A DNA stretch of 64,000 bases from Hymenobacter ginkgonis (GTDB lineage: Bacteria; Bacteroidota; Bacteroidia; Cytophagales; Hymenobacteraceae), in NCBI RefSeq assembly GCF_009755225.1, contig NZ_WQKZ01000003.1, positions 558,001-622,000 of the forward strand, read 5' to 3'. Each line of letters starts with the position of its first letter. Position 1 is the first letter of the stretch. Shown piece by piece: positions 1,240-12,706 of this stretch. Under the pieces are notes generated by a model. It was not told where the DNA came from. It saw nothing but the letters and a program-made list of their open reading frames with translations, and did no database searches. The translations under genes and the position numbers were made by a program.

Positions 1240-2184
1240 CTACGCAGCTGGCGCCGCGCTCATCTTGTCCAGGGCGTCCATTACTTCTTTTACGTGGCCG
1301 CGCGAGGTTTCGAGCAAGGCCTTTTCGTCGTCGTTGAGCTGAAGTTCAATCACGCGCTCTACGCCGTTTTTGCCTAGGATAACCGGGGCGCCGAGGTACA
1401 CGCCGTTGATGCCGTACTCGCCCTGCAGCTCGAGGCACACCGGGAACACGCGGCGCTGGTCGCGCACAATGGCTTCGACCATTTGGGCCGCGGCCGCGCC
1501 AGGCGCGTACCACGCCGACGTACCCATGAGCTTCACGAGCTCGCCGCCACCCACGGCAGTGCGCTGCACGATGGCATCCAGTTTCTCCTTAGAAATCAAC
1601 TCGGTAACTGGGATGCCGCCCACGGTAGTGTAGCGGGGTAGGGGCACCATGGTATCGCCGTGGCCACCCATGAGCACCGCCTGAATATCCTTGGGGCTCA
1701 CGTTGAGGGCTTCGGCCAAGAAGGCGCGGTAGCGGGCCGTATCGAGAATACCGGCCATGCCGAACACTTTTTCGCGGGGCAGCTTGGCGGTGAGATGCGC
1801 TTGGTAGGTCATCACGTCGAGCGGGTTGCTCACCACAATGATGATGGCGTTGGGCGAATGGGCCACCACCTGCTCGGTTACCGATTTCACGATGCCAGCG
1901 TTGGTCGCAATCAGGTCGTCGCGGCTCATGCCGGGCTTGCGGGGTAGGCCCGAGGTAATCACGACCACCTCCGAGCCCGCCGTGCGCGCATAGTCATTCG
2001 TTACGCCCACGGTGCGGGTATCGTAGCCGAGAATCGGGGATTTCTGCCAGATATCCAGAGCTTTGCCTTCGGCAATGCCCTCTTTGATATCAACTAAAAC
2101 TACTTCGTTGGCAATTTCGCGGGTGGCAAGTACATCGGCGCAGGTAGCGCCCACATTGCCAGCCCCAACTACGGTAACTTTCAT
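1240..2184 (-). CDS. mdh: Malate dehydrogenase (LDH-like type)
   Basis: This cytoplasmic TCA-cycle enzyme interconverts malate and oxaloacetate with NAD. The 314-residue protein starts with the Rossmann motif GAGNVG at residues 7-12. It has the mobile-loop sequence LPRKPGMSRDDL, whose first arginine is the malate rather than lactate discriminator. NPLDVMTYQ follows, and near residue 175 is GGHGDTMVPL with the catalytic histidine. Length and motifs fit the bacterial LDH-like malate dehydrogenases. I took the ATG at 2184, since the 32 codons upstream to 2280 are unlike the family and precede the Rossmann strand. A strong terminator follows at 1182-1211. No nearby TCA gene suggests an operon. 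Confidence 0.95.
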   Translation of the reverse strand: MKVTVVGAGNVGATCADVLATREIANEVVLVDIKEGIAEGKALDIWQKSPILGYDTRTVGVTNDYARTAGSEVVVITSGLPRKPGMSRDDLIATNAGIVKSVTEQVVAHSPNAIIIVVSNPLDVMTYQAHLTAKLPREKVFGMAGILDTARYRAFLAEALNVSPKDIQAVLMGGHGDTMVPLPRYTTVGGIPVTELISKEKLDAIVQRTAVGGGELVKLMGTSAWYAPGAAAAQMVEAIVRDQRRVFPVCLELQGEYGINGVYLGAPVILGKNGVERVIELQLNDDEKALLETSRGHVKEVMDALDKMSAAPAA

Positions 2185-2336
2185 GGGGTAAGAATGAGGG
2201 TGGGGAGTAACAAAGCCAGCAATTCTGGCGCGGTAAAAGTACACCCGAAATCTATGCGCTGGCCCGCGTGAGGCCACCATTTTTGTGGGGGGTAGGCGGG
2301 CCAGCTAGGCCGTTGGCAGGCGCCTACCTCCCAGCC

Positions 2337-3665
2337 TCACAGGCGCTGCACGGCCAGCACGCGGGTGGTGGCCTCGTCTACTTTAAAGCGGTCGTCGACG
2401 CGCCAGCCCACCACCCAGCAGATTTTGCCGTCGGCCGAAGTCAGCACGCGCACTTCGTCCTTCAGGTTCAGCGGCACTTTTTGGTCGATGAGAAAATCGC
2501 TCAGGTGTTTTTTACCCTTCATGCCCAGCGGCATAAACCAATCGCCCTCCTGCCAGCGCCGCAGGGTAAGTGGAAACTTGAGCTTGTCTGCGTCGAGCGC
2601 CGCCGTGCTGCGCGAGCGGGGGATTTCGTAGTCGGCCGCGTTGTGGGGGGTAGCGCGCAGGCGCAGGCCATCGGCCAGCAAGTCTTCCTGCCCCTCGGCC
2701 AGCTGAAACGTGCCGTACTGCGCCAGCCGCCGCGGGGTGATGACCAGCTGCCCGCGGTCCTTCACTAGGCGGTGGGTAGGCGAGTCGAACTGCTTGCCGG
2801 CGGGGCCATCAAAAGCGGCCACAATTTCTTTCACCACGGGCCATGCAAAACCAAACTCGCGCAGCAGCTCGTGCAGGACCAAGGCCGGGGCGGCAGCCTG
2901 GGCTAGGGGGGGTAGGGCCAGGTACGTTGCATCGGGCTCGTCGCGGCGGGCTTCGGCGGCCAGGGTAGCCACGTAGCGGCGCACTATCTCTTCGGCGCCG
3001 CCCACACGCTCGGCGGTGGCAGCCAGTGTGTTGTCGAGGTTGGGGTTGATGGCGCGCAGCACGGGCAGGGCCTCTAGCCGCAGGCGGTTGCGCTGGTACA
3101 CGGGGCTGTCGTTGCTGGCATCTTCACGCCAGATAAGGCGATTTTCAACCACGTAGTCGTAGATATCATCTTTGGCGCAGGCGAGTAGCGGGCGCACCAC
3201 GCGCCCGTTTTTAGCCTGAATCCCGTGCAAGCCCGCCAGCCCAGTGCCGTGCGTGAGGTTGAGCAGCATGGTTTCGGCAGCATCGCGGCGGTGGTGGGCC
3301 GTGGCCAGCACGGCGTAGTCGTTGGCCGCCCGCACCTGCTCAAACCAGCGGTAGCGCAGCAGCCGGGCGGCCATCTGGGTCGAAATTCCTTCGCGCTCCG
3401 CAAAGGCTTTGGTTTGAAAAAACTCGACGAAGTAAGGTGCCTCGTACTGCTTGGCTAGCTTGCGCACAAATTGTTCGTCGGCGTCGGCTTCTTCGCCGCG
3501 CAGCCCAAAGTGGCAGTGTGCCACGGCCAGCGGCACGCCCAGCCGGTGCAAAATATCAAGCAGCACCACCGAGTCGAGGCCGCCGCTGACGGCCACTAGT
3601 ACGGTGTCGGTGGGGATGGCGAAAAGATTTTCTTGGGTTATAAACTGGCGAACTTGGTCGAGCAT
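2337..3665 (-). CDS. tilS: tRNA(Ile)-lysidine synthetase
   Basis: TilS modifies the wobble cytidine of the CAU anticodon of tRNA-Ile to lysidine, which is essential for reading AUA codons. The PP-loop signature SGGLDS is at residues 27-32 of the 442-residue protein. It is followed by HCHFGLRGEEAD and AHHRRDAAETMLLNL, both typical of the N-terminal ATP-pyrophosphatase domain. The C-terminal part (about residues 365-442, with LRRWQEGDWFMPLGMKGKK and LSDFLID) matches the TilS C-terminal substrate-binding domain. I chose the ATG at 3665; the open frame continues to 3956 but that stretch overlaps the divergent promoter region and the opposing gene. It is divergent from the OstA-like gene, with 94 bases between the start codons. 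Confidence 0.95.
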   Translation of the reverse strand: MLDQVRQFITQENLFAIPTDTVLVAVSGGLDSVVLLDILHRLGVPLAVAHCHFGLRGEEADADEQFVRKLAKQYEAPYFVEFFQTKAFAEREGISTQMAARLLRYRWFEQVRAANDYAVLATAHHRRDAAETMLLNLTHGTGLAGLHGIQAKNGRVVRPLLACAKDDIYDYVVENRLIWREDASNDSPVYQRNRLRLEALPVLRAINPNLDNTLAATAERVGGAEEIVRRYVATLAAEARRDEPDATYLALPPLAQAAAPALVLHELLREFGFAWPVVKEIVAAFDGPAGKQFDSPTHRLVKDRGQLVITPRRLAQYGTFQLAEGQEDLLADGLRLRATPHNAADYEIPRSRSTAALDADKLKFPLTLRRWQEGDWFMPLGMKGKKHLSDFLIDQKVPLNLKDEVRVLTSADGKICWVVGWRVDDRFKVDEATTRVLAVQRL

Positions 3666-3710
3666 GGCAGGAAACAGTGCCCGGCAAAGGAGGGGGTAGG
3701 GCACTACGCT

Positions 3711-3718
3711 GCAAAGAT
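3711..3718 (-). promoter_or_regulatory. Candidate -7 box for tilS
   Basis: On the minus strand this reads CATCTTTG, one base off the Bacteroidota -7 consensus TAnnTTTG. It sits 46 bases upstream of the tilS start. No convincing -33 TTG was confirmed. Confidence 0.4.
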
Positions 3719-3743
3719 GCGCGTTAGCCCCGGCCTCCGCCCG

Positions 3744-3751
3744 TACCTTTG
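3744..3751 (+). promoter_or_regulatory. Candidate -7 promoter box (TACCTTTG) for the OstA-like gene
   Basis: TACCTTTG matches the Bacteroidota housekeeping -7 consensus TAnnTTTG. It ends only eight bases before the ATG at 3760. With the usual distance to the start of transcription, the mRNA would begin at or next to the start codon. Confidence 0.55.
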
Positions 3752-3759
3752 GCCCCTGA

Positions 3760-5523
3760 ATGCCGCAACTCCGTTTTTTACTTTTTCTGCTTTTGCTGGC
3801 CTTGCCCAGCTCTTTGCTGCTGGCCCAAACCCGGCCTACCCCCCCGCCCGTCGCCAAGGGCGCCCCTGCGCCGCCCGCGCCGAAAGGTGCCCCCGTGCAG
3901 CTGCTGCACGCCGACGAACTCCGCGGCGGCGATTTCAACGGCGTAAAAATTCGCAAGCTGCTGGGGGCCGTCAGCTTTAAGCAGGAGGATACCTTTCTGT
4001 ACTGCGACTCGGCCTACCAGTACCTCGAACGCAATGAGGTAGAGGGGTTTAGCAATGTGCGCATCGTGCAGAACGATACGCTGACTATCACCGGCGACCA
4101 CGGCTACTACGACGGCAACCGCCGCACGGCCCGCATGACCGGCAACATCGTGACGATGCGCGACCCGCGCATGACGCTCACCACCACGGCCCTCGACTAC
4201 GACCTGACCCGCAAAACGGCTTATTACACCGTGGGTGGCCACCTCGTAGACCCCAAAAATACCCTCGATAGCCAGCAGGGATTCTACGATACCAATAGCA
4301 AAGTCTTTGTCTTTAAGCGCGATGTGCACCTAATTTCGCTCGATGAAACCGGCGCGCCCACCGATCTGCGCAACGATACGCTGACGTTTAACACCATCAG
4401 CAAAATCGCGTATTTCGATGGCCCTACCCGTATTAAGGGCTCGCAAGGTGACCTGTACGCGGAAAAGGGCAACTACAATACGGTTACCAGAGTGGCGTTT
4501 TTCCAGCGGAATGCCAAGATTGACACGCCCGGCTACCTGCTCGGCGGCGACCAGCTGGTGTACGACCAGGTGAAGCTCTACGGGGTGGCCAAAGGGCACG
4601 TTTCGCTTACTTCGAAGAAGGACAATGTGGTGCTGCGCGGCGATAATGGCCGCTACTGGCGGGCGCTGGGCCGCACCAAAATATTCGGTGCCCGCCCGGT
4701 AGTGCGTAATATTTCGGGCCGCGATACCCTCTACCTCGCCGCCGATACGCTGCTGAGCGTAGAAACCCGGCCCGGCCGCGCCGTGCAGCGCCCAGTGCTC
4801 TACGCCTGGCCTAAGGTGCAGATTTTCAGAGGTAAAATGCAGGGCCGCTGCGATTCACTGACGTACGACCGGCAGGATAGCATTATCTACCTCAACCGGG
4901 ACCCCGTGATTTGGCAAGCACGCAACCAGCTTACGGCCGACTCGATGAACATGCGCTTTAAGCACGGCCAGCTCGACCGGGCCAACCTGTTTTCTAGCGC
5001 GTTCGCGATTCAAGAGGATACCCTGTCTGACTACAACCAGGTGAAGGGCCGCAACATGATTGCCTACTTCAGCCAGGGCAAAATGGCGCGCATCGACGTG
5101 CTGGGCAACGCGGAAAGCCTCTATTTTTCGCTCGACGGCGACACCGTGATGAGCGGCATGAACAAGTCGGTATCGGCCAGCATGACACTGCGCTTCGCCA
5201 ACAACAAAATCAAGCAGCTGACCTGGCTCACCAACCCCGAAGCGGTGTACACGCCCACCCACGAGCTAAAAGATGGGGACAAGCAGCTCAAGGCGTTTCG
5301 CTGGCGGCCCACGGAACGCCCAACCCGCGGGGTAGTGTTTGGAAAGCATTTCGCCAGCGACTTGCGCCACAAAGCCAAGCCCAAAGCAAAGGCTAAAACC
5401 TCTAAAACGAAAGCTAAGGCAGTGCCCCGTAAGCGGGCGCCTACCCCCGCTAAAAAGGCTAAGCCCCAACCGCCAGCTACTCTGCCCAAGGCGCCGCTGC
5501 CCGCCGCTGCAACCCGCCGCTGA
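3760..5523 (+). CDS. OstA/LptA-like periplasmic protein (LPS transport)
   Basis: The 587-residue protein has a cleavable signal peptide (residues 1-22, ending LLLAQ) and then repeated short beta-strand units. Examples are VEGFSNVRIVQNDTLTITGD and the ADTL and GDNGRY type turns that are characteristic of the OstA/LptA domain. LptA-type proteins bridge lipopolysaccharide across the periplasm; Bacteroidota have long versions like this one. The last 60 or so residues are a low-complexity Lys/Ala/Pro tail (KAKAKTSKTKAKAVPRKRAP), probably disordered. The ATG at 3760 follows a TACCTTTG box by eight bases. bamD follows 70 bases downstream, so an outer-membrane biogenesis neighbourhood is plausible. 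The exact partner in the Lpt bridge cannot be read from the sequence. Confidence 0.85.
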   Translation: MPQLRFLLFLLLLALPSSLLLAQTRPTPPPVAKGAPAPPAPKGAPVQLLHADELRGGDFNGVKIRKLLGAVSFKQEDTFLYCDSAYQYLERNEVEGFSNVRIVQNDTLTITGDHGYYDGNRRTARMTGNIVTMRDPRMTLTTTALDYDLTRKTAYYTVGGHLVDPKNTLDSQQGFYDTNSKVFVFKRDVHLISLDETGAPTDLRNDTLTFNTISKIAYFDGPTRIKGSQGDLYAEKGNYNTVTRVAFFQRNAKIDTPGYLLGGDQLVYDQVKLYGVAKGHVSLTSKKDNVVLRGDNGRYWRALGRTKIFGARPVVRNISGRDTLYLAADTLLSVETRPGRAVQRPVLYAWPKVQIFRGKMQGRCDSLTYDRQDSIIYLNRDPVIWQARNQLTADSMNMRFKHGQLDRANLFSSAFAIQEDTLSDYNQVKGRNMIAYFSQGKMARIDVLGNAESLYFSLDGDTVMSGMNKSVSASMTLRFANNKIKQLTWLTNPEAVYTPTHELKDGDKQLKAFRWRPTERPTRGVVFGKHFASDLRHKAKPKAKAKTSKTKAKAVPRKRAPTPAKKAKPQPPATLPKAPLPAAATRR

Positions 5524-5552
5524 AATAGGGACTCTTAGCCCTGGCAGCTGGC

Positions 5553-5585
5553 TTGTAGCTAACGGCCCAAATTTTCGTACCTTTG
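5553..5585 (+). promoter_or_regulatory. Candidate promoter of bamD (TTG and TACCTTTG)
   Basis: TACCTTTG at 5578-5585 fits the TAnnTTTG -7 box, and a TTG at 5553-5555 lies 22 bases upstream as a possible -33 element. The bamD ATG is at 5594, eight bases after the box, the same arrangement as at 3744-3760. Confidence 0.5.
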
Positions 5586-5593
5586 TTAATCGT

Positions 5594-6433
5594 ATGCGAT
5601 TCCACCGTCTTATTACCGCCGCCCTCCTCACCAGCATGCTTGCGCTGGGTAGCTGCACCGGCTACCAAAAGCTGCTCAAGAGCACCAATGTCAACGAGAA
5701 GTACGCGGCGGCCATCAAGTACTACGAAAAAGGCGATTATTTCCGCTCGGGCGCGCTGCTCGAAGAAATGATTCCGCTGCTGAAAGGCCGGCCTGAGGCC
5801 GAAAAAGCGCAGTTTTACTTCGCCAACACCAATTACATGCAACGCAACTACGTGCTGAGCGCGTACTACTTCAAGCAGTTTATCGATACCTACCCCAACT
5901 CGACAATGGTTGAGGAGGCGTCGTTTTTGCGGGCAAAATCGCTGTTTCGCGACTCGCCGAGCTACGAGCTGGACCAGACGAATACGGTGTCGGCCCTCGA
6001 AACCATTCAGGATTTCTTGAACAACTACGCGACCAGCCAATTCCGGACGGAAGCCGAGAGCATGTCGCAGGAATTGCAGCGTAAGATTGAGAACAAGGCT
6101 TTCCAGAGCGCCAAGCTCTACTATGCCCTGCGCTACAACCAGGCCGCGGCCACGGCCATGACCAACTTCATGCAGCAGTATCCGGGCTCGGTATATGGCG
6201 AACAGGCTGACTACCTGCGCTTAGCTGCGCAATATGCCTGGGCCAAGGAAAGTATAGAAACTAAGCAGCGCGAACGTTTTCTGGACGCCGTAGCTTTTTA
6301 TCAGCACTTTGTGGATACCTATCCTCAGAGCAAAAACCTCCGCACCGCCCAGTCGATGTACGACGACAGCCGCGCCGAGATAGAAAAGCTGAAAAGCCTA
6401 CCCACCGAAGGCGCTGCCAGCACCGTTAATTAA
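5594..6433 (+). CDS. bamD: Outer membrane protein assembly factor BamD
   Basis: BamD is the lipoprotein partner of BamA in the machine that folds beta-barrel proteins into the outer membrane. The 279-residue product has a lipoprotein signal peptide with lipobox LGSC (Cys21). Tetratricopeptide-like repeats follow, including YYEKGDYFRSGALLEEMIP, AQFYFANTNYMQRNYVLSAY and FKQFIDTYPNS, a pattern typical of BamD. The open frame extends upstream to 5339, inside the previous gene; the ATG at 5594 gives a proper lipoprotein signal and is eight bases after a promoter box. The gene order bamD-rpoZ-coaBC-DUF4835-recN is a common Bacteroidota arrangement and supports the call. Confidence 0.93.
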   Translation: MRFHRLITAALLTSMLALGSCTGYQKLLKSTNVNEKYAAAIKYYEKGDYFRSGALLEEMIPLLKGRPEAEKAQFYFANTNYMQRNYVLSAYYFKQFIDTYPNSTMVEEASFLRAKSLFRDSPSYELDQTNTVSALETIQDFLNNYATSQFRTEAESMSQELQRKIENKAFQSAKLYYALRYNQAAATAMTNFMQQYPGSVYGEQADYLRLAAQYAWAKESIETKQRERFLDAVAFYQHFVDTYPQSKNLRTAQSMYDDSRAEIEKLKSLPTEGAASTVN

Positions 6434-6455
6434 TTTGAATAATTCATTCAGCATC

Positions 6456-6794
6456 ATGAAAGCTCCCGCCTCCGCCTCCATCATCACCCGCAACCTGGCC
6501 GACATCACGACCGATAAAAACAACGTGTACGAGGCGATTTCCATCATCTCGAAGCGCGCTAATCAGCTGTCGCTAAAGCTGAAAGAAGAGCTGACCGACC
6601 GTCTGGCCGAGTTTGCTACCACCGTCGACAACCTCGAAGAAGTATTCGAAAACCGCGAGCAAATCGAAATCAGCAAGCAGTACGAGCGTCAGCCCAAGCC
6701 TACTAGCCAAGCCATTGAGGAATTCATTGCGGGTGAGCTGCACTACGAAACACCCGAGGTTGCGCCCATCATTATCCCCCGCGAGCTGTTCTAG
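6456..6794 (+). CDS. rpoZ: RNA polymerase omega subunit (RpoZ-like)
   Basis: The 112-residue protein has the compact omega fold signature NNVYEAISIISKRANQL near residues 25-45, where omega proteins normally read (N)ryelv.i.akRArql. Omega stabilises the beta-prime subunit of RNA polymerase. A TTG at 6435 is in frame but overlaps the end of bamD, so the ATG at 6456 is preferred. It lies 22 bases after bamD and is probably cotranscribed. The C-terminal 50 residues (QPKPTSQAIEEFIAGEL and onward) are the extension seen in Bacteroidota versions. Confidence 0.85.
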   Translation: MKAPASASIITRNLADITTDKNNVYEAISIISKRANQLSLKLKEELTDRLAEFATTVDNLEEVFENREQIEISKQYERQPKPTSQAIEEFIAGELHYETPEVAPIIIPRELF

Positions 6795-6839
6795 GTCGCT
6801 TCAGGTTTGTTAGTTGCTGCCCGTTAAGCACCTTCTATA

Positions 6840-7406
6840 ATGGCTGCCGACCAGCAACAACCAGCCTTGAAAAACCGCCGCCTGCTGCTAGGGGTGAGTG
6901 GCAGCATTGCAGCCTACAAAGCGGCGGCGCTGACCCGTTTGCTAGTGCAGGCCGGCGCTGAGGTACAAGTTATCTTGACGGAGGCCGCCGCCGCCTTTGT
7001 TACGCCCCTCACGTTGGGGACCCTCTCCAAAAAGCCCGTCTTGACGGGCTTTTTGCGTGATGCGGCCAGTGGGCAGTGGCACAACCACGTCGAGCTAGGC
7101 CTGTGGGCCGAAGCGCTGCTTATCGCCCCGGCTAGCGCCAATACCATTGGCCAGCTGGCTAATGGCTTGTGCCCTAATCTGCTGAGCGCGGTGTATCTGT
7201 CGGCTCGCTGCCCAGTTTTTCTGGCCCCCGCAATGGACCTTGATATGTATGCCCACCCCGCCGTGACGCAGAACATCCAGCGGCTGCGCTCGTTTGGCAA
7301 CCACGTGTTTGACTCGCCCAGCGGCGAGCTGGCCAGTGGCCTGAGTGGCCCCGGCCGCATGCTAGAACCCGAGCAGATAGTGGTCGAACTAACAGCTTTT
7401 TTTTGA
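6840..7406 (+). CDS. coaC: Phosphopantothenoylcysteine decarboxylase (CoaC half of a split CoaBC)
   Basis: This FMN enzyme decarboxylates 4'-phosphopantothenoylcysteine in coenzyme A synthesis. The 188 residues contain LGVSGSIAAYKAAAL (flavin phosphate loop), HNHVELG with the catalytic histidine region, APASANTIGQLANG, and APAMDLDMY, the PxMNxxMW equivalent with Asp for Asn. The substrate flap ASGLSGPGRM has Ser where E. coli Dfp has the catalytic Cys, a variation I believe is usual in Bacteroidota. In most bacteria this domain is fused to CoaB. Here a TGA stop at 7404-7406 ends it at the interdomain linker, just before a palindromic element. A terminator-like hairpin lies inside the coding sequence at 7029-7054. 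Confidence 0.9.
   Translation: MAADQQQPALKNRRLLLGVSGSIAAYKAAALTRLLVQAGAEVQVILTEAAAAFVTPLTLGTLSKKPVLTGFLRDAASGQWHNHVELGLWAEALLIAPASANTIGQLANGLCPNLLSAVYLSARCPVFLAPAMDLDMYAHPAVTQNIQRLRSFGNHVFDSPSGELASGLSGPGRMLEPEQIVVELTAFF
7029..7054. other. Terminator-like hairpin inside coaC
   Basis: A perfect 12-base inverted repeat (AAAAAGCCCGTC, two-base spacer, complement) ending in five Ts. It looks exactly like an intrinsic terminator in either direction, yet it lies inside the coding sequence (LSKKPVLTGFLRD). Whether it stops transcription is unknown. Confidence 0.6.
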
Positions 7407-7408
7407 TT

Positions 7409-7501
7409 AAAAATCAGGAGTTAAAAATTAAAAAGCGCTCGTCTGTAGTCAGTTGCTCGAAGGCAATTCCACGGTCTAGGCGCTTTTAACTCCTGATTTT
7501 T
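7409..7501. repeat. Palindromic element between the coaC and coaB halves
   Basis: Perfect 18-base inverted repeat (AAAAATCAGGAGTTAAAA at 7409-7426, complement at 7484-7501) with a second inner pair AAAAGCGC/GCGCTTTT and a 40-base core. It fills nearly all of the 119-base gap between the two coaBC domains and shifts the frame between them. A related TTAACTCC-type inverted repeat lies at 41731-41806. Confidence 0.8.
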
Positions 7502-7525
7502 GATTCCTATTTCTTACTGCCAAAG

Positions 7526-8179
7526 ATGCACGTTCTGCTAACTGCCGGCCCCACCTACGAGCCCCTGGACCCTGTGCGTTTTTTGGGCAACCGTTCGACG
7601 GGCAAAATGGGCTACGCGCTGGCCGAGGCTTTTGCCGAAGCGGGCGCCGACGTAACGCTGGTTAGTGGGCCAGTGGCGCTCCCTACCCCCCTGCACCCGA
7701 ACATCCGCACGGTGCGCGTCGAAACGGCCCAGCAGATGTACGAGGCCGCTGCTGCTGTAGCACCGCAGGCCGACGGCTGGGTATTTGCAGCGGCGGTAGC
7801 CGACTATCGCCCGGCGCACGTGGCATCAGAAAAGATTAAGAAAGACGGCGATACGCTGACGCTGGAGCTGGTGAAGAACGTGGATATTGCCGCTACCCTG
7901 GGCCACACGAAACGGCCTGAACAATTTGCCGTGGGTTTTGCGTTGGAGACTACGAACGAGCTGGCCCACGCCCAGGCCAAGTTGCACCGTAAAAACTTTG
8001 ACTTAGTCGTGCTCAATTCGCTGCGCGATGCGGGCGCAGGCTTCGGCCACGACACCAATAAAGTAACGGTGCTCGACCGGGCTGGGCAGGTGCTTAACTT
8101 CGAACTGCAAGCTAAAACCGAACTGGCCCGCGTGCTGGTGCGGCTTATTCTGACCCGTTTTTCTGCTGCGTATGCGTAA
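7526..8179 (+). CDS. coaB: Phosphopantothenate-cysteine ligase (CoaB half of a split CoaBC)
   Basis: The enzyme joins cysteine to 4'-phosphopantothenate using a nucleotide triphosphate (CTP in most bacteria). The 217 residues begin directly at the conserved strand HVLLTAGPTYEPLDPVRFL. NRSTGKMG, AAAVADYRP, KIKK, ELVKN and GFALET follow, all typical of the Dfp C-terminal domain. In fused proteins a linker precedes this strand; here the ATG is at its very start. Together the two halves (188 + 217 residues) add up to a normal CoaBC length of about 400. The start is not in the frame of coaC. The 3' end overlaps the next gene by eight bases, so the two are translationally coupled. Confidence 0.9.
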   Translation: MHVLLTAGPTYEPLDPVRFLGNRSTGKMGYALAEAFAEAGADVTLVSGPVALPTPLHPNIRTVRVETAQQMYEAAAAVAPQADGWVFAAAVADYRPAHVASEKIKKDGDTLTLELVKNVDIAATLGHTKRPEQFAVGFALETTNELAHAQAKLHRKNFDLVVLNSLRDAGAGFGHDTNKVTVLDRAGQVLNFELQAKTELARVLVRLILTRFSAAYA

Positions 8180-9089
8180 GCTATTTGCCCCTATTCTGTT
8201 TTTGTTGCTGCTGGTTGGCACGTTGCCTAGCCAGGCGCAGGCGCTGAGAGGTACCGTAGTTATCACTACAGAAAATGCCGTGGTAGTAGACCAGAGTCTC
8301 ATCCGGGACATGGGCAATGCCATGCAGAACTACTTAAACACCAATCCCTGGACTCGCCAAACGTACCAGCCTATCGAGAGCGTGCAGTACCGGATGTTTG
8401 TGGGCATCACGGCCATTCCGCAGAATGGCAGCTACCAGGCCACGATGCGCCTCATCGCTACCCGCCCCGTTTATGGCACCGGTTACGAAACTAACCTGCT
8501 GAATATCAACGACCGTAGTTTTAATTTTAACTACACCCCTCAAACAGTTTTCGCCCCGACAACCAATAGCTTCGAGAATAACTTGTCGTCGCTGCTGAGC
8601 TTTTACGCCTACATGATGCTGGGCACTGACCAAGACACGTTTGCCCGGCTTGGTGGCTCGACGTATTACGACCAAGCGCGCGTTATTCTGCAATATTCGG
8701 CTGGCCAATCGACTACGAATGAGACGGATGAGGGCTGGACTGACAGCGGCTCGCGCAACCGCTACTGGTTGCTCAACAACCTCACCGACCCGCAGCTCGA
8801 AGCCTTTCGCACGGCGCTTTATGCCTACTACCGGCAGGGCATGGATATCTTTATCGAAAAGCCCGATGAGGCGCGCACGTCCATTCTAGCTGCGCTTACG
8901 GGCATCCAAAAAGCCAACGTAATACGCCCCAACACCTTATTCCTAAGGGCTTTCTTCGATGCTAAGGCTGATGAAATTACCAACATCTTCCGCACCAGCA
9001 CCGATGCCCAGCAGAAGCAGCAGCTATTAGCCCTCCTTACCGATGTGGACCCCGGTAACCTAGCTAAGTATCAAACTATAAATCGCTGA
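8172..9089 (+). CDS. porD: DUF4835 family protein (PorD-like, type IX secretion associated)
   Basis: The 305-residue protein has a signal peptide (residues 1-22, ending SQAQA) and matches the DUF4835 family. Markers are the N-terminal strand GTVVITTENA, the motif NSFENNLSSLLSFYAYMMLGTDQDTFA (about residues 135-162) and an alpha-helical C-terminus. Members sit between coaBC and recN across Bacteroidota, as here. Some databases name the family PorD and link it to type IX secretion; I give that as remembered family knowledge and cannot confirm a mechanism from sequence. The ATG at 8172 overlaps the end of coaB by eight bases. Confidence 0.8.
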   Translation: MRKLFAPILFLLLLVGTLPSQAQALRGTVVITTENAVVVDQSLIRDMGNAMQNYLNTNPWTRQTYQPIESVQYRMFVGITAIPQNGSYQATMRLIATRPVYGTGYETNLLNINDRSFNFNYTPQTVFAPTTNSFENNLSSLLSFYAYMMLGTDQDTFARLGGSTYYDQARVILQYSAGQSTTNETDEGWTDSGSRNRYWLLNNLTDPQLEAFRTALYAYYRQGMDIFIEKPDEARTSILAALTGIQKANVIRPNTLFLRAFFDAKADEITNIFRTSTDAQQKQQLLALLTDVDPGNLAKYQTINR

Positions 9090-9254
9090 TTGAGTAGGTA
9101 GCGTAGATTTGAGTGTCGGTAATTTGTTGTTTAATAGAGTATTAGCAGAGCAACCTGAAGGGTAAAAAGTATAAGCAAATAAAGTAAAAAGTATTAACCA
9201 GAATGAGCCGCTCGAAGCTACGGTAGCAGCTCAATCTGCGAAAATCAGCGATTT

Positions 9255-10928
9255 ATGTTAATTGACTTACGGATTCAGAATTACGCCCTTATCGAGCAAC
9301 TGGAGATGCGGCCTTCGCCGCTGCTCAACATTATTACGGGGGAAACCGGGGCGGGCAAGTCCATTATGCTCGGGGCCATTGGCCTGCTATTGGGTAACCG
9401 CGCCGACTCGCGGATGCTCTTCAATACGGAGCGTAAGTGCGTGATTGAGGGGCAGTTCGATATTAAGAATTACCAACTGCAAGATATTTTTGATTCGGAG
9501 GACTTGGATTATGATACGCAGTGCATTCTGCGGCGCGAAATCAGTCCATCGGGTAAGTCGCGGGCGTTTGTGAATGACACGCCAGTGACGCTGGAAGCGT
9601 TGCGCAAGATTGGGGCAAACCTCATGGATATTCATTCGCAGCACGATACACTGCTGCTAGGGGATGCCGTATTCCAACTCAACCTGCTCGACCTCTACGC
9701 GAACCTGGTGCCTACCCGTACCCAATACGGCAATGCCTACCGGCAATACCGCAAACTCGAAACCGACCTCAAAGCACTCGAAGACCAGTCGGCTCAGGCT
9801 AGTAAGGAGTTGGATTACAATAGCTTTCTATTGAGCGAACTGGAGGATGCCAACCTTGATAAGGAAGACCAAGAAGCCCTGGAGCAAGAAGTAAAGCAGC
9901 TCGAACACGCCGAGGAAATTAAGTACAAGCTTAGCCAGGCGCTGCACGGCCTGCGCGACAGCGAAAGCTGCGCCACGGGCACCATGAAGGACGCTTCGAC
10001 GCTGCTAGGGCAGGTAAGCGCCTACTCGGAGAACTTTCGGGAGCTGCGCCAGCGCCTCGAAAGCTGCCTAATTGAGCTGCACGACATTGCCGACGAGGTA
10101 GAAACGGCTGAGCGCCGCACCGAGGGCGACCCCGCCCGCGCCGAGGAGCTGCAGGCTCGCCTTACGGTGCTCTACAACTTGCAGCGCAAACACCAGCGCC
10201 GCGACCTGCCCGGCCTGCTTGAAACCCGCGAGATGCTGCGCCAGAAAGTAGGCTCGGTGCTTAATCTAGATAAAGAAATTACGCGTTTGCGTAAAGATTC
10301 GGACGCCGCGCTGGCTCAGGCTACTAAGCAAGCTGCTAAGCTGTCGGAGAGCCGCCGCAAGGCCTTTCCCAAGTTTGAAAAGGAACTGAGTGCGTTGCTC
10401 GCCGACCTAGGGATGCCCCACGCCCGCATCGTGGTGGAGCACAAAACGGGGCCGTTAGCTGCCAGCGGCTCCGACTTGGTCAGTATCCTGTTCACGGCCA
10501 ATAAGGGGGCTCAACCGCAGACGCTGAGTAAGGCTGCCTCGGGTGGCGAGTTTTCGCGGTTGATGTTGTGCATCAAGTATATGCTGGCCGATAAGACGGC
10601 GTTGCCGACAATAGTATTCGACGAAATCGATACGGGTATCAGCGGCGAAATTGCGGTGAAAGTAGGCCGCATGATGCAGCAGATGGCCCACAAGCACCAG
10701 CTAGTAGCCATTTCGCACTTGCCGCAAATGGCCGCCGCCGGCGATACGCATTATTTCGTGTATAAGGAAGACCGGGCCGACCGCACGGTGAGCCGCATCC
10801 GGCAGCTTTCGGCCGACGAGCGCATCCGGGAAATCGCCCACATGATTGCCGGTGCCAAACCCAGCGAAAATGCTTTGCAAAGCGCCCGCGAGCTGCTGGC
10901 CCTGCGGGGCGAGGAGTTGGTAGGGTAG
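9255..10928 (+). CDS. recN: DNA repair protein RecN
   Basis: RecN is an SMC-like ATPase that acts at double-strand breaks. The 557-residue product has Walker A GETGAGKS at residues 29-36 and a central coiled coil (about residues 150-375, rich in Glu, Leu and Lys, with QALEQEVKQLEHAEEIK-type heptads). The ABC signature region KAASGGEFSRLMLCIK and Walker B IVFDEIDTGISG (about residues 453-465) follow near the C-terminus. Length and order fit RecN. The 165-base upstream gap is AT-rich and contains two copies of GTAAAAAGTAT, but I found no clear promoter. Confidence 0.95.
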   Translation: MLIDLRIQNYALIEQLEMRPSPLLNIITGETGAGKSIMLGAIGLLLGNRADSRMLFNTERKCVIEGQFDIKNYQLQDIFDSEDLDYDTQCILRREISPSGKSRAFVNDTPVTLEALRKIGANLMDIHSQHDTLLLGDAVFQLNLLDLYANLVPTRTQYGNAYRQYRKLETDLKALEDQSAQASKELDYNSFLLSELEDANLDKEDQEALEQEVKQLEHAEEIKYKLSQALHGLRDSESCATGTMKDASTLLGQVSAYSENFRELRQRLESCLIELHDIADEVETAERRTEGDPARAEELQARLTVLYNLQRKHQRRDLPGLLETREMLRQKVGSVLNLDKEITRLRKDSDAALAQATKQAAKLSESRRKAFPKFEKELSALLADLGMPHARIVVEHKTGPLAASGSDLVSILFTANKGAQPQTLSKAASGGEFSRLMLCIKYMLADKTALPTIVFDEIDTGISGEIAVKVGRMMQQMAHKHQLVAISHLPQMAAAGDTHYFVYKEDRADRTVSRIRQLSADERIREIAHMIAGAKPSENALQSARELLALRGEELVG

Positions 10929-10952
10929 GGCATGAGCTTGCCCGTAAATGCC

Positions 10953-10960
10953 TACTTTTG
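10953..10960 (+). promoter_or_regulatory. Candidate -7 box (TACTTTTG) for fabI
   Basis: TACTTTTG fits TAnnTTTG and lies 42 bases before the fabI ATG at 11003. The nearest upstream TTG (10938-10940) is only 12 bases away, closer than usual for a -33 element. Confidence 0.4.
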
Positions 10961-11002
10961 CCCCGTATTTTGCTTTACGGCAAGCTAACGCCTACCCCCC
11001 CT

Positions 11003-11836
11003 ATGTCCAGTAACCTCCTCGCCGGCAAAGTCGGCATTATTTCCGGCGCGCTCAACGAACAGTCTATCGCCTGGAAAGTGGCTCAAAAAGCACACGCCGA
11101 AGGCGCCCGCATCGTGCTTACCAATGCACCGCTGGCCATGCGCATGGGCGAAATCAAGAAACTGAGCGCCGAGATTGATGCCCCTATTATTCCGGCCGAC
11201 GCTACGTCGATGGAGGAGCTAAACACGCTTTTTAGCGAAGCGCAGAGCCACTTCGGTGGTAAAATTGACTTTTTGCTGCACTCGATTGGTATGAGCGCCA
11301 ATATTCGCAAAGGCAAGAGCTACGGCGACCTCGACTACAAATTTTTCCAGCAAACACTCGACGTATCGGCCTTGTCGCTGCACAAGATGCTAGCCGTAGC
11401 CGAGAAGCAAGACGCTTTCAACGAGTGGGGTAGCGTAGTGGCCCTTAGCTACATCGCGGCGCAGCGCGCCTTCCTCGACTACACCGATATGTCGCAGGCC
11501 AAGGCCGTGCTCGAAAGCATTGCCCGCAGCTACGGCCAGCGCCTGGGCCACCTCAAAAAAGTGCGTGTGAACACTATTTCGCAGTCGCCAACCAAGACTA
11601 CCGCTGGCACTGGCATTACCGGTTTCAACGCGTTTTATGAGTATGCCGACAAAATGGCCCCACTCGGCAACGCGCCCGCCGAAGCCTGCGCCGACTACTG
11701 CGTATCGTTGTTCTCGGACCTCACACGCTTCGTGACGATGCAAAACCTGATGCACGACGGCGGTTTCAGCAGCACCGGTATTTCGGAGGCTATTGTAGAA
11801 GCCATTACCAATGCCGGCGAAACGGCGGCCCAATAA
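11003..11836 (+). CDS. fabI: Enoyl-[acyl-carrier-protein] reductase (NADH) FabI
   Basis: FabI carries out the last reduction of each fatty acid elongation cycle. The 277-residue protein is an atypical SDR: it has IISGALNEQSIAWKVAQ (the SIA nucleotide-binding signature) at the N-terminus. It also has the catalytic Tyr-x6-Lys pair in YTDMSQAK (about residues 160-167) and VRVNTISQSPTKT. I chose the ATG at 11003; a TTG at 10958 is in frame but overlaps a promoter box. It ends at a strong bidirectional terminator shared with the convergent SDR gene. Confidence 0.93.
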   Translation: MSSNLLAGKVGIISGALNEQSIAWKVAQKAHAEGARIVLTNAPLAMRMGEIKKLSAEIDAPIIPADATSMEELNTLFSEAQSHFGGKIDFLLHSIGMSANIRKGKSYGDLDYKFFQQTLDVSALSLHKMLAVAEKQDAFNEWGSVVALSYIAAQRAFLDYTDMSQAKAVLESIARSYGQRLGHLKKVRVNTISQSPTKTTAGTGITGFNAFYEYADKMAPLGNAPAEACADYCVSLFSDLTRFVTMQNLMHDGGFSSTGISEAIVEAITNAGETAAQ

Positions 11837-11853
11837 GCTTCCCTACCCCCTCT

Positions 11854-11895
11854 AAAACAGAAAAGCCCGGCTGTACAGCCGGGCTTTTCTGTTTT
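11854..11895. terminator. Bidirectional terminator between fabI and the SDR gene
   Basis: A 42-base perfect palindrome with G+C-rich core (AGCCCGGCTGT/ACAGCCGGGCT) flanked by AAAACAGAA and TTCTGTTTT, between two convergent genes. The outer 16 bases AAAACAGAAAAGCCCG are identical to those of the terminator at 39074-39117. Confidence 0.9.
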
Positions 11896-11905
11896 AGCCA
11901 TTACC

Positions 11906-12706
11906 TTATTTGCTTTCGTTGACGGGTACGCTTTCGCTATGTACTTTGGATGCCACGAGCGAATCAGGAATGATGTTGCTGACCGCAACCTGCACTTTGT
12001 TCATAAAGCCGGATACCACTTTCTTATCGCCCGCCAGCAGTGCTTTGTAGCCATCCTTAGCTACGTCGGCGGGGGAGGCCGGATTGCCTTCGGCCACGTT
12101 TTTGGCCTGCGTCATATCGGCTTTGCGGAAGAAGTCGGTATCCGTCAGGCCGGGCTGCAACGCCGTAATGGTCACTTTGCTGTCCTTGGTTTCTTCCTGA
12201 ATAGCCTCGGTGAAGGAAAGCACAGCCGCCTTGGTGGCGTGGTAAATAGCTTGTAGCGGGCCCGGTAGCTCGCTGGCAATGCTGGCCACTTGCAAAATTT
12301 TGCCGTCGTTGCGAGCCAGCATCTCTTTGAGGTAGAGCTTGGTAAAGGTTACGTAGGCGCCAATGTTGAGCTGGATAATATCTAGCTCGCGGTTAATATC
12401 GGTGTCTTTAAACTCGCCGTATTGGCCCTGTCCGGCGTCATTTACTAGCGCATCTATTTGAATACCTTTCGCTTTGATTTCGTCATACACGTCGAACGGA
12501 GCCTGGCGCTGAAACAAGTCCTTGGCAATAGTCGTGACTTCAACGCCGTACTGCTGCTGAAGCTCGGCGGCGGTCTGGCTCAGTTCATCTTGGCTGCGGG
12601 CCACGATAACGAGGTTGTACTTGTCCTGCGCAAAAAGTTTGGCCAATTCGCGGCCGATGCCGCTGGTAGCGCCCGTAATAAGGGCGTGCTTTGGGGAGTC
12701 TGCCAT
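11906..12706 (-). CDS. SDR family oxidoreductase
   Basis: Classical short-chain dehydrogenase of 266 residues. It has the cofactor loop TGATSGIG (residues 11-18), NDAG in place of the usual NNAG, a serine in VASIASE, and the catalytic YHATK. LQPGLTDTDFF after it is typical of the DltE/YqjQ-like group. The substrate cannot be inferred. The tail beyond residue 215 (VVSGFMNKVQVAVSNIIPDS) is common in SDRs annotated as acting on hydrophobic substrates. It is convergent with fabI and divergent from the M28 peptidase gene; no operon partner is visible. Confidence 0.88.
   Translation of the reverse strand: MADSPKHALITGATSGIGRELAKLFAQDKYNLVIVARSQDELSQTAAELQQQYGVEVTTIAKDLFQRQAPFDVYDEIKAKGIQIDALVNDAGQGQYGEFKDTDINRELDIIQLNIGAYVTFTKLYLKEMLARNDGKILQVASIASELPGPLQAIYHATKAAVLSFTEAIQEETKDSKVTITALQPGLTDTDFFRKADMTQAKNVAEGNPASPADVAKDGYKALLAGDKKVVSGFMNKVQVAVSNIIPDSLVASKVHSESVPVNESK

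Follow-up and report, generated by a model that had tools for sequence, protein, structure and literature searches.

The main sigma factor of the Bacteroidota, sigma-ABfr, recognizes promoters with a -7 element, TAnnTTTG, and a -33 element, TTTG, which have been studied in Flavobacterium johnsoniae (PMC6847099; statements on this and the other published systems are taken from the accessible parts of the papers cited). In this organism 87% of the leaders are longer than 10 nt, with a mean of 33 nt, and 4-5 nt separate the box from the transcription start at probable promoters (PMC6847099). Leaderless or very short-leader mRNAs amount to 5.5% in F. psychrophilum (PMC9723704), and in Bacteroides thetaiotaomicron approximately 3.7% of the leaders are under 10 nt, with transposases among the genes concerned (PMC7366714). 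Near-leaderless mRNAs are already known as a minority in the Bacteroidota. The method of Zheng et al. detects only Pribnow-like boxes and may undercount in this phylum (PMC3160421). Bacteroidota are without Shine-Dalgarno sequences (PMC6847099, PMC10783764). Leaderless mRNAs are bound by 70S ribosomes at an AUG that lies directly at the 5' end or close to it; in some bacteria translation is lowered by the distance of the AUG from that end (PMC9031893). Outside the phylum, an ORF-adjacent -10 motif of the sigma-70 type gives rise to leaderless mRNA in Deinococcus-Thermus (PMC12340547).

Putative promoter boxes next to the start codons of two genes in Hymenobacter ginkgonis

The window, a stretch of 64,000 nt of the H. 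ginkgonis genome, contains two forward-strand boxes that match TAnnTTTG (TAHHTTTG), the published -7 element of the main Bacteroidota sigma factor. The original prediction had placed both boxes eight bases before an ATG and named the genes as OstA-like and bamD, and exact pattern matching and profile searches confirmed these positions and names. The features are the following.

3744..3751, + strand: putative -7-type promoter box of the OstA-like gene, TACCTTTG; exact TAnnTTTG match, N8 to the ATG at 3760
3756..3760, + strand: predicted transcription start zone of the OstA-like gene, leader of at most 4 nt (Flavobacterium 4-5 nt rule)
3760..5523, + strand: OstA-like gene (OstA_2, LptC/LptA-like stretches), 587 aa; PF13100, 1.6e-52
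5578..5585, + strand: putative -7-type promoter box of bamD, TACCTTTG; exact match, N8 to the ATG at 5594
5590..5594, + strand: predicted transcription start zone of bamD, leader of at most 4 nt (4-5 nt rule and purine-poor spacers in relatives)
5594..6433, + strand: bamD, outer-membrane assembly lipoprotein, 279 aa; TIGR03302, 2e-28; lipobox LGSC

The start codons of both genes look sound, because a signal-peptide-like N terminus can be read in the OstA-like protein and a lipoprotein signal with LGSC in BamD. The ATG of bamD follows the stop codon of the OstA-like gene after 70 nt on the same strand, and downstream of bamD an omega-like gene (RNA_pol_Rpb6), coaC, coaB, porD and recN follow in this order. 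CoaBC is encoded by two open frames (6840-7406 and 7526-8179) that are split at the domain boundary and cover positions 1-176 and 188-391 of the CoaBC model, respectively. Upstream of the OstA-like gene lies the divergent tilS. On the - strand, CATCTTTG (3712-3719) differs from the box by one mismatch, lies roughly 46 nt upstream of the ATG of tilS (3665) and may represent a divergent tilS promoter that overlaps the ostA promoter region; CAAAGATG is fairly conserved within the genus.

From the observed box, its spacing and conservation, the gene class and the spacing gap described below, we infer promoter identity, start sites and the route of translation. The boxes are most probably sigma-ABfr-type -7 elements of housekeeping promoters that belong to a near-leaderless class. 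Owing to the proximity of each element to its gene, the mRNA would have a leader of 0 to about 4 nt; the ribosome would encounter the AUG at the 5' end or directly beside it, and initiation would proceed in the manner of a leaderless mRNA.

Conservation of the boxes in the genus

Nineteen Hymenobacter genomes, including that of the window, were compared after alignment of the loci by protein start, and TAnnTTTG was present 7-9 nt before the bamD ATG in all 19. Box-anchored rows were collected with TA[CA]CTT[TC]G only, a choice on which the column figures depend; in these rows all 19 bamD boxes read TACCTTTG, with a spacing of 7 (six genomes), 8 (twelve) or 9 (one), and across the 45 columns upstream the most frequent base reaches 46% on average. 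The box-anchored spacing at ostA is 7 (13 genomes), 8 (five) or 6 (one), six of the eight box columns are at 100% and the other two at 95% and 89%; conservation upstream of the box is higher than at bamD (57% versus 46% for the most frequent base). With alignment by protein start, the full ostA box lies at 7-8 nt in 16/19 genomes. Two genomes have TACCTTCG, and the sequence of one locus without an assigned ATG (L022) contains TAACTTTG six nt before an ATG. Outside the genus, the box was found at 3-9 nt in only 1/10 ostA loci, which counts against the near-leaderless reading. The distance of exactly eight bases that was originally proposed thus applies to both sites of the window, and in relatives it widens to 7-9 for bamD and 6-8 for ostA within the genus and to 4-8 for bamD elsewhere.

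Three distinct genus loci (L029, L035 and L120) carry a second TAnnTTTG 35 nt before the bamD ATG beside the close box, an arrangement that may represent tandem promoters, of which one would give a leadered and the other a nearly leaderless mRNA. Such a second box would suit the reading that the close box is a promoter but a minor one, and that most bamD mRNA is a leadered polycistronic transcript reading through from ostA, as would the common strand and the 70 nt between the two genes. This distribution of transcripts is unlikely, since a minor promoter poorly explains why the close box is invariant in the 19 genomes while the flanking sequence drifts. Read-through can be compatible with near-leaderless transcription as the main reading.

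A class of genes with short box-to-ATG spacing

Within the window, TANNTTTG-N8-ATG occurred twice versus an expectation of 0.22 in shuffled sequence (at least two matches in 4 of 100 shuffles), and the box alone was not enriched (21 observed versus 22.9 expected). Across the whole genome (5.67 Mb), with real starts unfiltered, the N8 pattern was found 34 times versus 16 times for its reversed form, and TTTGN{3,9}ATG, again with no start filter, was barely more frequent than its control (4649 versus 4386). Unfiltered patterns give a weak signal, as the majority of ATGs do not act as start codons. A stronger test was made with a start-filtered sample that comprised 1.664 Mb (29% of the genome) with 1296 called genes, 999 of them with ATG starts; gene starts were taken from an in-house codon-model script and not from curated annotation. 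TAnnTTTG preceded a candidate in-frame ATG by 3-9 nt in 37 genes and by 10-16 nt in three, and 26 counts of the 3-9 nt class were at the predicted start. As a control, the box letters were permuted in all 30 ways; apart from TAnnTTTG itself, the 29 permuted boxes gave a mean of 4.7 genes at 3-9 nt (sd 2.4, maximum 10). At a distance of 17-44 nt, the box was present in 79 genes versus about 16 on average when all permutations are considered. The original prediction had held that a lack of genome-wide enrichment of the spacing would speak against it; what emerged is a separate class of genes (37 versus 3). The same shape was seen in 400 kb of a second member of the genus, G012, with 13 genes at 3-9 nt and one at 10-16 nt. 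The class is weak in 400 kb of G027, a genome of another family (7 genes at 3-9 nt versus 5 at 10-16 nt, controls up to 4), which counts against the near-leaderless reading, and these counts neither support nor contradict the gap at 10-16 nt.

Both ostA and bamD would be part of this genome-wide class, in which 3-9 nt separate the box from the ATG. The gap that separates the class from leadered genes would indicate that leaders are tolerated if they are nearly absent or long enough, and not in between. A box distance of 10-16 nt corresponds to leaders of about 5-12 nt, and the gap therefore fits a leaderless translation that is lowered by distance.

The class includes genes that we take to be hslV, gmk, truA, pheS, glyS, ruvC, folE and others, named from reading of their sequences. 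The two genes of the window had suggested a common factor in outer-membrane biogenesis and a shared way of starting translation for such genes. An outer-membrane signature was dropped as the class consists mostly of other genes, and the spacing is common to what are mainly housekeeping enzymes. In G012, two genes with identical first 20 residues have the box N3 before the ATG, and another short-class gene is presumably transposase-like. The variant TACCTTTG accounts for 9/11 short-class boxes at 7-9 nt and 4/23 at 3-6 nt in the 1.664 Mb sample; a link between TACCTTTG and a spacing of at least 7 is a lead that was noticed and tested in the same data. A -33 TTTG (about 19-21 nt upstream) showed no peak in either the short or the leadered class, and F. 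johnsoniae is without a clear one too. That no -33 element stands out is a further point against the near-leaderless reading.

The conserved block before bamD could also act as a translational or protein-binding element within a longer mRNA. The spacer is indeed patterned in other families, with C at position 1 in 25/27, a purine at position 2 in 24/27 and C at position 5 in 22/27 loci. Still, the core equals the sigma-ABfr -7 element letter for letter, the box recurs at 37 unrelated genes, leadered genes have the same box further upstream (the 79 genes at 17-44 nt) and no Rfam family matches: a search of positions 2000-12000 of the window found nothing, and the block is not a known structured RNA. 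A function other than that of a promoter is thus very improbable. Chance spacing of box and ATG, to which the 4 of 100 window shuffles and the barely raised unfiltered counts might point, can practically be dismissed, and the arrangement is not chance, because the bamD box and its distance are conserved in relatives and the start-filtered sample is enriched (37 genes versus a permuted mean of 4.7).

The bamD box beyond the genus

For a wider count, one row was kept per distinct bamD locus, and five genus duplicates were dropped. The loci from the rest of the order included 20 drawn mainly from families that were previously unrepresented; the 20 loci from the rest of the class were hand-picked, before inspection of their sequences, among the 69 genomes outside the order in which a match had been obtained. 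The box was located 3-9 nt upstream of the ATG in 40/40 genus loci, in 27/44 loci of the rest of the order (two without an ATG candidate are counted as misses) and in 14/20 of the rest of the class (one such miss). The remaining 17 and 6 loci lack a close box, which counts against the near-leaderless reading, and none of two unplaced Bacteroidetes MAG loci has one. The commonest spacing is N8 in the genus (32/40), and N4 (7/14) and N6 (5/14) prevail in the class outside the order; examples of N7 are found in Pontibacter (L106), a Flammeovirgaceae MAG (L108) and Shiella aurantiaca (L109).

For comparison, other members of the short class in the genome of the window were considered. In the order sample, with the own genome included, a close box was found at hslV in 1/30, gmk in 4/30 and truA in 8/30 loci, where 0, 5 and 12 loci, respectively, without an ATG candidate are counted as misses. 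Even though truA illustrates that other genes are fairly often close too, bamD is exceptional. The hslV gene has N4 in the genomes of the window and of G012 but was rejected as a second conserved case on its order-sample count.

Predicted transcription start sites

The box of F. psychrophilum is located at -12 to -5 (PMC9723704). According to the Flavobacterium rule of 4-5 nt between box and start, N8 would leave 3-4 nt of leader, and the strictly leaderless spacing would be N4; the box position at both genes permits a predicted leader of at most 5 nt. N8 exceeds the 4-5 nt required for strict leaderlessness, which is a point against the near-leaderless reading. It had been expected that a typical -7 position lets the transcripts begin at the start codon itself. 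As "-7" refers to the centre of the element, this expectation is not upheld. Of the proposed leaderless mRNAs, the conserved box geometry and the gene class stand, and a leader of strictly zero length gives way to a predicted 3-4 nt.

In the box-anchored genus rows, ostA loci with N7 mostly have G as the fifth base downstream of the box (CGCCGAAATG), and a start at this G, giving GAA-AUG, is plausible. A leader of 2-4 nt would fit best for the OstA-like gene because the base at the predicted start is a purine in most relatives. A different picture emerges for bamD, where 20/27 spacers from other genera, all 6-8 nt long, contain no purine from position 5 on. The expected number of purine-free spacers is 11.2 when drawn from starts of the own genome (3 of 5000 draws reach 20) and 3.6 when drawn from G027 starts (0 of 5000), although the bamD loci are related and the draws thus overstate the significance. 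RNA polymerase prefers purines for starting. As the gap is purine-poor, the bamD start may be shifted to the A of the AUG; the alternative is a start 3-4 nt before the AUG. Tentatively, and with slightly less than even confidence, near-leaderless transcription of bamD can be regarded as an old, selected trait of the Bacteroidia, with bamD at the head of the omega, coaBC, porD and recN run in many families and a spacer from which purines have been removed so that transcription is initiated on the AUG or directly beside it.

Comparison with known systems

The arrangement at bamD over many families provides a named test case for leaderless-type starts. From the gap at 10-16 nt, the leader lengths that Bacteroidota ribosomes tolerate can be predicted, and annotators would gain a rule for the choice of start codons in this phylum. 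In the searched literature no report of bamD as a leaderless-type mRNA was found, and supplementary start-site tables may hold a bamD start unremarked; as far as this literature goes, the depth of the arrangement at bamD is the new part.

The sigma-ABfr promoters of F. johnsoniae have the same box as reported here, but leaders are mostly long there and the box abuts the start codon here. The short leaders of F. psychrophilum and B. thetaiotaomicron share the phylum, the box family and the restriction to a minority of genes, with starts that were measured there and are predicted here. The accessible parts of both accounts contain no mention of bamD, of conservation across families or of a spacing gap (PMC9723704, PMC7366714). 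The nearest parallel is the motif of Deinococcus-Thermus, which is also a promoter element located a few bp before the ORF. It belongs to another phylum, reads TANNNT and precedes approximately 30% of ORFs (PMC12340547), whereas a different element is used here at approximately 3% of the called genes (37/1296).
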